Source: Cellulophaga sp. L1A9
Lineage (GTDB): Bacteria > Bacteroidota > Bacteroidia > Flavobacteriales > Flavobacteriaceae
NCBI RefSeq assembly: GCF_009797025.1
Contig: NZ_CP047027.1
Location: forward strand, 1,674,001 to 1,738,000
Length of the DNA: 64,000 nt
Reading direction: 5' to 3'
Part shown: piece by piece, positions 3,939 to 9,065 of the stretch
Position numbering within the stretch: position 1 is the first letter of the stretch
Layout of the letters: the number at the start of each line of letters is the position of its first letter
The notes under the pieces: model-generated
Told to the model about the DNA's origin: nothing
Database searches by the model: none
What the model saw: only the letters and a program-made list of their open reading frames with translations
Made by a program: the position numbers and the translations under genes

Positions 3939-4961
3939 TCAATCAGGCTTTTCTTCATATCGACGCGTAGCTTTCTTCAATTTTTGATGGATTCTTTTCC
4001 TAACCCGTTCTGGTTGTAAAATCTCAATAGCATCCCCAAACCCAAGTATCAAACGCTCTAATTCAAAATTGATTTTTACTTTGATATTGATTTCAATGCT
4101 ACCATCTCCATTTTCTTTCTCAATTATTTGAGAATGATGCATGGGTTTTGTAATTACGTAAGGAGCATTATATCTATCAACCCATAACTTAATATTTGAA
4201 GCTCGCTCTCCTTGATTTACCGTTACACCAACAACATCCTTGTAAAAGGTATCTGCATCAAATTCAAAGTCTGTATAAGAAGTTGCAAAATCATAATCAA
4301 TCGAAATAATTCGGTCTAAAGCCAAATTAACAACTCCTTTATTTTTATTCCCCATTCCTACTAAGAACCATCGATTATTGAACTCTTTCAATAAACAGGG
4401 ATGAAAGGTAATTGTGTTCGCCTCTATAGCTTTGAACGACTTATACTCTAATTTCAAAACCACCTTTTTCTGAATGGCTTGATACAATTCATCTAACCAA
4501 TGGAGTCCCTTTAGGTTTTCATTTTTATCCAGATGAATAATTGAAGATTGGTGGGTTTTCTCAGTATATACTTTATCCTCCAATCGCTGAATAATTCCAC
4601 CTATTTCAGAAAACAACGAAAAGTCTTTAAACTGCTTTAGCATTTCTACCGTTTCAGAAAGTACATTCATATCATTTTCCGTAATCGGAATATCTGTAAT
4701 GGAATAACCTTCTTCTTCGTACTTATAATACTTCTTATCGTAAACAGAAATAGGTGCGTTGTATCCTAATTTATCACTTCGCATTAACTGAATATCCAAT
4801 TGAACCGTTCGCTTGCTAACATTTACTTCTCGACCTTCATATTCATATAAGGCATCTGAGCAGGCTTCAATTAAATCATCTAAAGTCCATTGACGGTAGT
4901 TATTCTGCAAACATTTATCAATAGATTTATACCGGATAAGGGCGTTTTTATTGAGAGCCAT
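3939..4961 (-). CDS. WYL-domain transcriptional regulator
   Basis: The 340-residue protein has an N-terminal helix-turn-helix region (about 1-70, including the segment NVSKRTVQLDIQLMRSDKLGY) and a WYL domain (about 150-240, with the segment KVVLKLEYKSF and the FHPCLLKEFNNRWFLVG core), followed by a WCX-like C-terminal part ending near 335. WYL proteins bind nucleic-acid or nucleotide ligands and often control defence or repair loci. It is transcribed away from the nucleotidyltransferase/HEPN/RtcB genes, and a perfect 12-bp inverted repeat sits between the two transcription units. That makes it the likely repressor or activator of the locus, sensing some product of RNA damage; this role is inferred. 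Confidence 0.88.
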   Translation of the reverse strand: MALNKNALIRYKSIDKCLQNNYRQWTLDDLIEACSDALYEYEGREVNVSKRTVQLDIQLMRSDKLGYNAPISVYDKKYYKYEEEGYSITDIPITENDMNVLSETVEMLKQFKDFSLFSEIGGIIQRLEDKVYTEKTHQSSIIHLDKNENLKGLHWLDELYQAIQKKVVLKLEYKSFKAIEANTITFHPCLLKEFNNRWFLVGMGNKNKGVVNLALDRIISIDYDFATSYTDFEFDADTFYKDVVGVTVNQGERASNIKLWVDRYNAPYVITKPMHHSQIIEKENGDGSIEINIKVKINFELERLILGFGDAIEILQPERVRKRIHQKLKKATRRYEEKPD

Positions 4962-4996
4962 TTAGGAGTATTTTTAATGAAAATACTAAATCAATC

Positions 4997-5025
4997 TTTA
5001 CTACGCAAAATAATTGCGTAGTAAA
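4997..5025. promoter_or_regulatory. Perfect inverted repeat, likely WYL operator
   Basis: TTTACTACGCAA, a five-base spacer AATAA, then TTGCGTAGTAAA: two perfect 12-bp arms in the 92-bp gap between the divergent WYL and nucleotidyltransferase genes. The left arm recurs exactly at 7532-7543, upstream of rtcB, which argues for a binding site and not for a chance palindrome. A TTTG element (5034-5037, CATATTTG, close to the TAnnTTTG -7 box) follows 37 bases after the start of the repeat. Bound protein would overlap the promoter. Confidence 0.75.
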
Positions 5026-5053
5026 CTGTCATATTTGTATCATAATATTAGAA

Positions 5054-5791
5054 ATGATGATACACAAACTTAAAAATCTTGCAACCGACAAAAAGGTTAA
5101 CATACTTTTTGCCTGCGAATCTGGAAGCAGAGCTTGGGGCTTTGCTTCTCCTGATAGCGATTACGATGTTCGATTTGTATACACCCATCCTCTAGAATGG
5201 TATCTATCCGTTTCAGAAAAAAGGGATACTATCGATTTAATGGAAGGCGACTTTGATGCAGTTGGTTGGGAACTCAGAAAGAAGCTACGCTTGCTTAAAA
5301 AGTCAAACGTACCAGCGCTAGAGCATTTATTTTCACCTATAACTTATATTGAAGAAAATGCATCTATTAAGGAACTTAGAAAAATCGCTGAAGATTGCTT
5401 TTCTCCTGTAGCTTGTATGTATCACTATTTAAGTATGAGTAAAAAATATGAAGAAAAGCTATCTGCTGAAACTGTAAAACTAAAGAGTTTGTTTTATGCA
5501 TTGCGAACAGCTTTGGCGGGCAAGTGGATACTGGAGAACAATACAATGCCTCCAGTTGTTTTTGATAAAATGCTATCTCTTGTCAAAAGGGATGAGGCTG
5601 ACGAAATAAGAAACTTAATGACTATAAAATCAGAGAATAACGAAAGTTATTTACATTCGAGAAATGAGAAAGTCATAAATCTTATAACAGGTGTTTTAGA
5701 TGTTAACGAAAAGTTTGCAAAATCTCTTTCTGGGGGAAAACCTGATACTGATAGAATTGATAGTTTTTTATACAACACCTTGACCAAATGA
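5054..5791 (+). CDS. Minimal nucleotidyltransferase, YcgL-like (first)
   Basis: A 245-residue protein of the DNA polymerase beta superfamily. The nucleotidyltransferase signature is plain: G24-S25 in SGSRAWGF, followed by D36-Y-D38, the paired metal-binding aspartates. The rest resembles the YcgL family described from Bacillus, with a helical C-terminal half that may act as a substrate-recognition domain. Such enzymes transfer a nucleotide to RNA ends or to protein side chains; the acceptor here is unknown. It is the first gene after the proposed operator, and its stop overlaps the start of the second nucleotidyltransferase (ATGA), so translation is coupled. Confidence 0.85.
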   Translation: MMIHKLKNLATDKKVNILFACESGSRAWGFASPDSDYDVRFVYTHPLEWYLSVSEKRDTIDLMEGDFDAVGWELRKKLRLLKKSNVPALEHLFSPITYIEENASIKELRKIAEDCFSPVACMYHYLSMSKKYEEKLSAETVKLKSLFYALRTALAGKWILENNTMPPVVFDKMLSLVKRDEADEIRNLMTIKSENNESYLHSRNEKVINLITGVLDVNEKFAKSLSGGKPDTDRIDSFLYNTLTK

Positions 5792-7531: not shown

Positions 7532-7572
7532 TTTACTACGCAAAATGACTGCGCACATGGAGCTGACATTTG
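7532..7572 (+). promoter_or_regulatory. Second WYL-type operator and promoter before rtcB
   Basis: TTTACTACGCAA at 7532-7543 is identical to the left arm of the repeat at 4997. After the same five-base spacer length comes CTGCGCA, a degenerate right arm that keeps the TGCG core. Further right, CTGACATTTG resembles CTGTCATATTTG of the first site. The TTTG lies 37 bases from the start of the repeat in both places. This predicts a second promoter for rtcB under the same regulator. Confidence 0.65.
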
Positions 7573-7616
7573 TTTCAGAATCATAAAGGAGACCCGTTAA
7601 ACAGTCTTCTTGTAGC

Positions 7617-7646
7617 GCTCCGCCGGACGAATGGAATCGGCGGAGC
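7617..7646 (+). promoter_or_regulatory. GC-rich hairpin in the rtcB leader
   Basis: GCTCCGCCG at 7617-7625 pairs with CGGCGGAGC at 7638-7646 (nine perfect base pairs, extendable by one G-U), enclosing a 12-base loop. It is strikingly GC-rich against the AT-rich surroundings and lies 16 bases before the rtcB start codon. There is no U-run after it, so it is not an ordinary terminator. It may shape translation or be a structured RNA substrate. Confidence 0.5.
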
Positions 7647-7661
7647 TAATTAAAAGAAATT

Positions 7662-9065
7662 ATGGAAAATACAGTAAACATCACAGGAAAAGAGTTAATC
7701 GATTTAGGTTTTCGTTCAGGGAAATGGTTTCCAGAAGCCATCGAATATATAAACACGAACCAATTAGAAGGAGAAGCTATGCTCGAGTTCTTAGAGCAAT
7801 ACCGCTTACCTCCTATGGTGAACTTACATGCAACTGCTGCTGAATTCGTTATAAACATCAAAGCAGAAAACGAATTGGAAGAAACCAATGTTAACTCCGT
7901 GGTAGAATCTATGAAGGTTTTGATGCGTACACCTACTGCAGTCAATGGTGCTGTTATGCCAGATGCTTGTCCGACTGGTCCTTCAGGAACAATTCCTGTT
8001 GGGGGTGTGGTAGTGGCAAAAAACGCCATACATCCAGGTATGCATAGTGCAGATATTTGTTGTTCTGTAATGTTGACTGATTTTGGAAAAACTGACCCAA
8101 AACTAGTTTTGGATGCTGCACATTCAATAACGCATTTCGGTCCTGGTGGAAGACCACGTGGAAAACAATTTCAGTTGACTGAAGAACTATTAGCCGAGTT
8201 CAAAGCCAACAAATTATTGAATGCTGATAAAGACATAAGTCTCGCGAGAGAACACTTGGGCACACAGGGTGATGGCAATCACTTCTTGTTTGTGGGTATT
8301 TCAGAAAAAACGGGTAATACTATGATGATTACGCATCATGGCTCAAGAGCGCCTGGTGCCAGATTATATAAAAAAGGGATGCATATAGCTGAGCGATTCA
8401 GAAAAGATTTATGCCCTGCCGCCTTAAAGCAAAATGCGTGGATTCCTTTTGAAACCGAAGAAGGACAGTTGTATTGGAACGCTTTACAAACTATCAGAAA
8501 ATGGACAAAGTTAAACCACGAATGTATTCATAATGCCACTTTAGAAGTTTTCAAGATGGAAGCTCAAGACCGTTACTGGAATGAGCATAACTTTGTTTTC
8601 AAAGATGGAGATTTGTTCTATCATGCTAAAGGCGCAACTCCTTTGGATGCGAAGTTTATGCCTGATATTACTGGGCCTAGATTGATTCCTTTGAATATGG
8701 CTGAACCCGTTTTAATTGTCGAGGGTAAAACAACCGCGAACAATTTAGGTTTTGCTCCTCATGGTGCTGGTAGAAATATGAGCCGTACGCAACACAAAAG
8801 GAACAACGCCGATTTCACAAAAGAAGCCTTGTTTGAAATAGAAACAAAAGGCTTAGATGTACGTTTCTTTTCTAAAGAAATCGATATTTCTGAATTGCCT
8901 AGTGCTTATAAAAATGCACAAACCGTTCGTTCTCAAATGGAAGAATATGGTTTAGGAGAGGTCATTGATGAAGTAATACCTTATGGTTGCATTATGGCAG
9001 GAGATTTTCAAGTTAATGCGCCTTGGAGGAAAAAGCGAAGGGAAAGAGATAATAAAAAAGAATAA
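7662..9065 (+). CDS. rtcB: RtcB-family RNA ligase
   Basis: This 467-residue protein belongs to the RtcB family, which joins RNA ends bearing 2',3'-cyclic phosphate or 3'-phosphate to 5'-OH through a GMP-histidine intermediate. Key motifs are visible in order: [21 protein letters not shown] with metal ligands D131 and C133/C134, GDGNHFL with H207, HHGSRAPG with H225/H226, [12 protein letters not shown] with H321, and [10 protein letters not shown] with H367 at the position of the guanylylated histidine. Length fits the family (about 400-480). The start follows a structured leader with its own putative operator. It should repair tRNA or other RNA cleaved by ribonucleases, and the neighbouring HEPN and nucleotidyltransferase genes fit such a repair or conflict role. 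Confidence 0.93.

Follow-up and report, generated by a model that had tools for sequence, protein, structure and literature searches.

We analyzed a 64,000-nt stretch of the genome of Cellulophaga sp. L1A9 (NZ_CP047027.1, positions 1,674,001–1,738,000, hereafter the window; the genome comprises 5.07 Mb in a single contig), in which two RlaP nucleotidyltransferases, a probable HEPN ribonuclease (RNase) and an RtcB RNA ligase are encoded next to a WYL-domain transcription regulator. The regulator gene (positions 3939–4961, minus strand; 340 amino acids, aa) specifies the WYL and WCX domains of Pfam and a predicted N-terminal helix-turn-helix. It is divergent, across an intergenic gap of 92 bp, from the genes on the plus strand: RlaP1 (5054–5791, 245 aa), RlaP2 (5788–6843, 351 aa, with a longer C-terminal part), the HEPN gene (6849–7529, 226 aa) and RtcB (7662–9065, 467 aa), whose product belongs to a divergent type, RtcBa. 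RlaP1 and RlaP2 overlap by 4 bp, RlaP2 and the HEPN gene are 5 bp apart, and 132 bp separate the latter from RtcB. This gene set, with its first three forward genes overlapping or at most 5 bp apart, had been described in an earlier note made from the DNA letters (the sequence-only reading), and both the coordinates and Pfam agree with that description.

Both nucleotidyltransferases matched PF10127, a family which Pfam names "RNA repair pathway DNA polymerase beta family", with scores of 246 bits (RlaP1) and 100 bits (RlaP2) against a cut-off of 23. Multiple alignment of 31 RlaP1 proteins showed that G24, S25, D36, D38 and D68 are invariant, so that the curated profile and the GS, DxD and third acidic residues all place RlaP1 in this family. 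The GS pair is also found in RlaP2 of the window, although an alignment of 32 sequences, one of them truncated, did not score it as invariant. RtcB matched PF01139 with 130 bits (cut-off 27). When it was aligned to the Pyrococcus horikoshii structure 4dwr_B, the Asp, Cys, Asn and three His residues and the histidine of the HGAGR motif were found to be kept, the Asp/Cys stretch being a segment not significant by itself. We take these residues to be the metal and guanylate binders of the archaeal enzyme. The whole genome contains one RtcB match and two RlaP matches, all of which are inside the locus. A PADLOC-DB scan of the five genes gave no match for HEPN, RlaP or RtcB; only the WYL protein was matched, by WYL models and a Cas3c model, and a known anti-phage defense system was rejected for this reason.

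The 226-aa protein had no Pfam family above cut-off, and sequence searches of the PDB gave nothing useful. Members of the HEPN superfamily are defined by an R-x4-6-H motif in which a polar residue follows the arginine. Such a motif, RNGFSH, is present at residues 134–139, and R134, N135, S138 and H139 are invariant in all 68 aligned sequences, as are N59, E63 and K67. The predicted fold is helical, and HEPN domains lead its structural matches, including AbiA, Csm6, the Salmonella prophage protein HepS, MntA-HepT and AMPylated HEPN structures. The HEPN-like character proposed by the sequence-only reading is thus supported by both motif and modeled fold, and the protein is very probably a HEPN RNase.

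To place the locus in a wider context, we surveyed 299 Flavobacteriaceae genomes, 18 genomes of the window's genus and 66 genomes of the genus of G177 (which appears to be Aquimarina), 380 of them distinct. RlaP was detected in 20 of the 299 Flavobacteriaceae genomes and in 14 of the 66 Aquimarina genomes. RtcB is more widespread (65/299); 36 of the 299 genomes have RtcBa, which was separated from other RtcB proteins by score class (approximately 101–118 bits), with the exclusion of G089, whose match is partial (86 bits). The 33 RlaP1 loci that we read share a common frame of a divergent WYL gene, RlaP1-RlaP2 and RtcBa, to which several optional genes may be added: PrfH-RtcBb-TPR, a DEDD-type exonuclease, a DUF434-DUF5616 protein and several unnamed proteins. 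Some RlaP loci have no WYL or RtcB in view, two (L067 and L068) have a single RlaP, and numerous RtcBa genes are accompanied by WYL without RlaP. Given its recurrence in other Flavobacteriaceae islands, the co-occurrence of WYL, RlaP1, RlaP2 and RtcBa is more than chance; end modification and sealing are indeed encoded together, as the sequence-only reading had suggested. Unnamed conserved proteins also occupy slots around RlaP1/RlaP2, namely c28 in L083, L084, L136, L137, L138 and L144, and a 138-aa protein in L137, L139 and L140.

Most gaps between the WYL gene and the first gene contain a common palindrome, TACGCAA-N5-TTGCGTA. We scored the best match within 350 bp upstream of each gene, noting that the loci are related and the events not independent. 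Upstream of RlaP1, the palindrome was found with 0–1 mismatch in 19 of 33 loci and with 4–6 mismatches in 3, the 11 loci without a candidate having been dropped before tabulation. Upstream of RtcB genes, it was present at 0–2 mismatches in 34 of 39 cases for RtcBa and in 0 of 9 for RtcBb. The sole perfect copy in the window genome is located at the WYL promoter (5002–5020, presumed operator 1), and a copy with two mismatches to the consensus lies ahead of RtcB (7537–7555, presumed operator 2). Based on these positions, the palindrome is most likely the operator bound by the divergent WYL protein. In WYL regulators, DNA binding is controlled by a ligand resembling nucleic acid, and the window protein has the corresponding domain. 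Since the same palindrome precedes both RlaP1 and RtcB, the locus would comprise two units under what appears to be one regulator.

The 132-bp gap ahead of RtcB, about which the sequence-only reading says nothing, contains operator 2 and, between it and the RtcB start, a hairpin that heads the RtcB transcript. The hairpin is a conserved element, R1 (7610–7650, plus strand), whose stem pairs 7617–7626 with 7637–7646; a variable hairpin, P1, is suggested by folding prediction at 7586–7611 (plus strand, approximate boundaries). For the analysis of covariation we used 21 leaders showing a hairpin (alignment A2), taken from 20 of 39 RtcBa upstream regions and one RlaP1 region; their MAFFT alignment took no account of structure. 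Of the A2 cells in the 10-bp stem, 95.7% are paired, compared with 31–47% when the stem is slid. Eight of the ten stem pairs have changes on both sides, a number equaled by 8 of 500 shuffles, and 33 cells changed on both sides compared with 10.8 in shuffles (reached by 0/500). Further pair types in the stem (15) were not above shuffles, 160 of 500 of which reached this number. The same stem was recovered by RNAalifold. A2 serves as the independent pair count; in the model-fitted alignment A4, 3 of the 32 rows are doubtful (two wrong-strand echoes and a G221 hit).

A covariance model built from 20 leaders (the poorly fitting leader of L110 was kept in A2 and excluded from the model) detected the hairpin in 29 of the 299 genomes at E < 1e-4, 13 of which had supplied leaders and 16 had not. 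All 29 are among the 36 RtcBa-containing genomes; the other 7 have no element at this threshold. In 27 of the 29 genomes, the hairpin is located 0.3–4.5 kb upstream of the matched core of RtcBa on the same strand. The exceptions are G122, where it is on the same contig as RtcBa at a distance of 11.5 kb, and G176, where it is on another contig beside a WYL gene. The latter place (L175, contig C13) has a WYL gene, the palindrome and the hairpin, with no RtcB in the 3-kb stretch, and the RtcBa of this genome, on a different contig, is the one with the poorly fitting L110 hairpin. A degenerate form of the palindrome (at most two further substitutions) is present in all 29 hairpin genomes (L156–L184, window included), with the hairpin downstream of it; the far end of the palindrome is 69–86 bp ahead of the hairpin (110 in L168). 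An element match in G221 (E 8e-4) was not counted, as its 3-kb stretch contains no palindrome. The window has a single copy, on the coding strand. Rfam assigned no family to it: even at E ≤ 5, the search gave only a snoRNA model on the opposite strand at 7711–7766 (E 1.5), and at gathering score the only match in the window was a tRNA at 9490–9563. The corresponding tRNA-Ala(GGC) gene (9487–9563, minus strand) lies downstream of RtcB on the opposite strand and is a possible insertion landmark. A 70-aa open reading frame (7631–7843) overlapping the hairpin and RtcB was judged spurious.

HEPN genes are rare. They were found in at least 2 of the 299 Flavobacteriaceae genomes, 5 of the 18 genomes of the window's genus and 4 of the 66 Aquimarina genomes, 10 genomes together; at most nine candidates were scored per genome in the 299-genome survey, and weak homologs may thus be missed there. 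Close homologs (100, 61 and 54% identity) occur in 3 of 380 genomes, including the window, and all adjoin RlaP1-RlaP2. Of the conserved linkage expected by the sequence-only reading, the part concerning WYL, RlaP1, RlaP2 and RtcB is recurrent, and the part concerning HEPN exists in rare cases. In Aquimarina sp. ERC-38 (L129), the order WYL|RlaP1-RlaP2-HEPN-RtcBa is the same as in the window and is followed by RtcBb-PrfH-TPR. In another Aquimarina locus (L128, 7257–14824), the order is RlaP1-RlaP2-x263-Hen1-HEPN-Pnkp, where x263 is an unknown 263-aa protein; Hen1_L and PNKP_ligase scored 311 and 564 bits, respectively, and the window palindrome also precedes RlaP1. The more distant copies (33–36% identity) were detected in 7 genomes, and a genus search centered on G102, which covered one genome, gave no match. 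Relatives of the HEPN protein are spread over Bacteroidota and a few other phyla. Among 30 stretches around orphan HEPN genes, no neighbor family listed was found in more than three, and recurrences were mostly refetched places or sister species (two places were fetched twice, L012/L120 and L014/L121, and two Maribacter species, L011/L013, have identical flanks). These more distant homologs look like orphans.

With moderate confidence, we propose that the locus is a WYL-regulated operon for RNA repair, in which HEPN trims, RlaP adds and RtcB seals. Upon RNA breakage, the WYL protein would sense a damage product and then release or activate the two putative transcription units, RlaP1-RlaP2-HEPN and RtcB. 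Judging from its fold and motif, the HEPN RNase would leave 2',3'-cyclic phosphate and 5'-hydroxyl ends, and its substrate is most likely RNA damaged beforehand, which it would cut or trim to give ends suited to the ligase. RlaP1 and RlaP2, as members of their family, may restore lost nucleotides, and RtcB, which retains the relevant residues, would then seal the break. The leader hairpin of RtcB may act at the RNA level in processing, protection or antitermination. The three close HEPN genes beside an RlaP pair go with RtcB (window and L129) or with Hen1 and Pnkp (L128). The RtcB and Hen1/Pnkp routes both handle cyclic-phosphate ends. Pairing with either ligase type suggests that HEPN stands on the damage side of the pathway and is not tied to one ligase.

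Several observations weigh against this proposal. On the regulatory side, matches with two mismatches, the level of operator 2, are as numerous in the genome as in the control (22 vs. 22), which led us to reject the idea that WYL controls further genes across the window genome; with the genome count at chance, operator 2 is credible because of its position and the like site ahead of other RtcBa genes. A sigma-70-style promoter scan found 16 sites compared with 21.3 expected, and terminators numbered 5 compared with 3.9 expected. On the HEPN side, 30 of the 33 RlaP1 loci have no labeled HEPN (a small number of the stretches read are short, and 3 of the 30 have a single RlaP or a split contig), and repair is therefore apparently independent of it; HEPN is thus one of several alternative genes that may lie between RlaP2 and the ligase. 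In L129 the HEPN gene (9783–10286) is split over two frames, the rest of the island being complete-looking. The seven distant HEPN genes have no WYL, RlaP or RtcB in the surroundings read (full 19–20-kb stretches for three, the nearest genes for four). Likewise, the 24 genome loci and one viral contig found with the HEPN alignment have none of these labeled in the fetched stretch, several contigs being short and near kin of the window genome possibly left out. Since none of these 25 loci carried WYL, RlaP or RtcB, a wide HEPN/RtcB linkage was rejected.

As an alternative, HEPN might be a conflict effector, an RNase that would attack tRNA or some other RNA on detection of a phage or competitor, with the co-induced RlaP/RtcB or Hen1/Pnkp enzymes rescuing the cell. 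This is a serious rival, given that a predicted HEPN gene of a Salmonella prophage is named in PMC9879122 as a good candidate for a factor that determines the expression of an RNA-repair operon. The matches to AbiA, Csm6 and prophage HepS and the association of close HEPN proteins with either sealing route are consistent with such a role. On the other hand, PADLOC does not match HEPN, RlaP or RtcB, no phage sensor was recognized in the five genes, the majority of HEPN homologs look solitary, and an abortive action would be blunted by repair enzymes expressed at the same time. Overall, we consider an effector role possible and less likely than repair.

The position of HEPN next to polymerase-beta-type nucleotidyltransferases, together with MntA-HepT and AMPylated HEPN structures among its best fold matches, brings to mind a type VII toxin-antitoxin in which RlaP adenylylates HEPN and RtcB serves as a remedy, the alternative offered by the sequence-only reading. 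The AMPylation target of HepT is presumably the Tyr of its H-x-Y motif. This Tyr, two residues past the His, is absent from all 68 aligned HEPN sequences, which have D, E, Q, S or A instead; RlaP1 and RlaP2 reach only 16.1 and 12.1 bits against MntA (cut-off 60), and most RlaP1 loci have no labeled HEPN at all. This explanation was therefore rejected, and we regard it as extremely improbable. HEPN might also be a passing cargo, a mobile orphan gene beside a repair operon in which it has no role, as its rarity, its scattered relatives and the split copy in one of three islands would suggest. However, its position beside the RlaP pair recurs in two genera and in combination with two types of ligase, it is only 5 bp from RlaP2 and shares its presumed operator, and the window-like HEPN group (full-length members with at least 52% identity) is separate from all remaining homologs. 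In addition, two further close HEPN sequences (344739 and 375202) are on contigs whose length equals that of a contig encoding an RlaP2 protein. We thus find it highly unlikely that HEPN is a mere passenger, and the repair operon described above is the preferred reading.

In relatives, the hairpin element is sometimes followed by tRNA-like RNAs. ARAGORN analysis of 30 element stretches revealed a tRNA-Pro(TGG)-like and/or tRNA-Tyr(GTA)-like gene at most 120 nt downstream in six of them (L156, L159, L163, L164, L178 and L179), and Rfam, run on 16 of the 30, added tRNA-like sequences in L172, L174 and L181, that of L172 again being of the tRNA-Pro(TGG)/tRNA-Tyr(GTA) kind. Several stretches have a motif, GTTCTTTAAAA, between the hairpin and the tRNA, which we take to resemble boxA. 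These tRNA-like RNAs are possibly damage-induced spare or decoy tRNAs. In L174 (1571–1682, plus strand), a tRNA has 46 nt in the anticodon loop (model 7), and in L181 (1373–1483, minus strand) a similar long hairpin is inserted near the anticodon arm; both lie in arrays with a repeated GTTCCTA motif.

In several RtcB islands, we also observed a permuted-like order: T arm, 3' acceptor strand, short loop, matching 5' acceptor strand and D arm. Such units occur in L073 (at 19229), L080/L164, L096, L095 (at 18639), L111/L172, L112/L179, L135, L144 and L178. A scan of all stretches for permuted tRNAs gave 58 raw candidates among 323 T arms (duplicate places included), many of which are ordinary tandem tRNA genes, and none in the window. 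A full 5-bp anticodon stem was present in 9 of 17 candidates chosen by eye compared with 58 of 272 swapped pairs. These data are suggestive of circularly permuted tRNAs in RtcB islands, without settling the matter. A more speculative model, which we consider quite unlikely, is a family-wide RNA-damage regulon controlled by WYL, in which hairpin-led transcripts lead to RtcB mRNA or to tRNA-like arrays (some opened or permuted at the anticodon side), RtcB matures spare or decoy tRNAs that are disabled until needed, and HEPN supplies the cleavage in some species. If this were true, the arrays would need a ligase such as RtcB for closure, which would amount to programmed bacterial tRNA splicing; should RtcB really act on them, its role in bacteria would be a programmed one in addition to repair.

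For many bacterial RNA ligases, it is not known what induces them or which RNAs they naturally act on. In this case, one RtcB type is flagged by a short palindrome and a leader hairpin, which outline a coherent and testable regulon, and the window adds a probable RNase to the row of genes for enzymes whose proposed role is to restore RNA ends ahead of sealing.

The sequence-only reading knew of no named system with this set. The locus is, in fact, a variant of published RlaP/RtcB RNA repair, in line with the name of PF10127 and with the accessible text of PMC6514570 and PMC7824862, and not an unknown system. According to these two sources, RlaP is a nucleotidyltransferase of RNA-repair systems and works alongside RNA ligases (Burroughs and Aravind 2016, via PMC6514570 and PMC7824862), as in the window, and RtcB is accompanied by PrfH, TPR and nucleotidyltransferase accessories in RFH-RtcB islands similar to those of Flavobacteriaceae. 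In contrast, neither the WYL regulator and its palindrome, nor a HEPN gene following RlaP2, nor the RNA leader is mentioned in the accessible text of either. No description of the WYL control site, the RNA leader or HEPN in this slot was found in the literature searched, which did not reach the main 2016 RlaP paper, so that the linkage of WYL or HEPN may have been noted before.

Other known systems share single features with the locus. The MntA-HepT type VII system also has a HEPN fold with Rx4H and a polymerase-beta nucleotidyltransferase neighbor, whereas the window lacks the target Tyr, its nucleotidyltransferases belong to another family and there is no obligate pairing. HepS of Salmonella Gifsy-1, unlike the window HEPN, is prophage-borne, and the two are likened by structure match and PDB title only. 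The rtcBA operon of Enterobacteria has RtcB under an RNA-damage sensor, the role proposed here for the WYL protein; the window differs in having a WYL/WCX regulator in place of the CARF regulator RtcR and in the addition of the RlaP pair and HEPN, and Pfam found no RtcA among the five genes (the locus only was covered, RtcA not being searched genome-wide). CARF and WYL have both been proposed to be ligand-sensing domains, according to the accessible text of PMC4012209. Finally, Hen1-Pnkp RNA repair differs from the window in its sealing enzymes, the window having RtcB and neither Hen1 nor Pnkp, yet its Aquimarina representative L128 has the RlaP pair, the palindrome and HEPN in common with the window.

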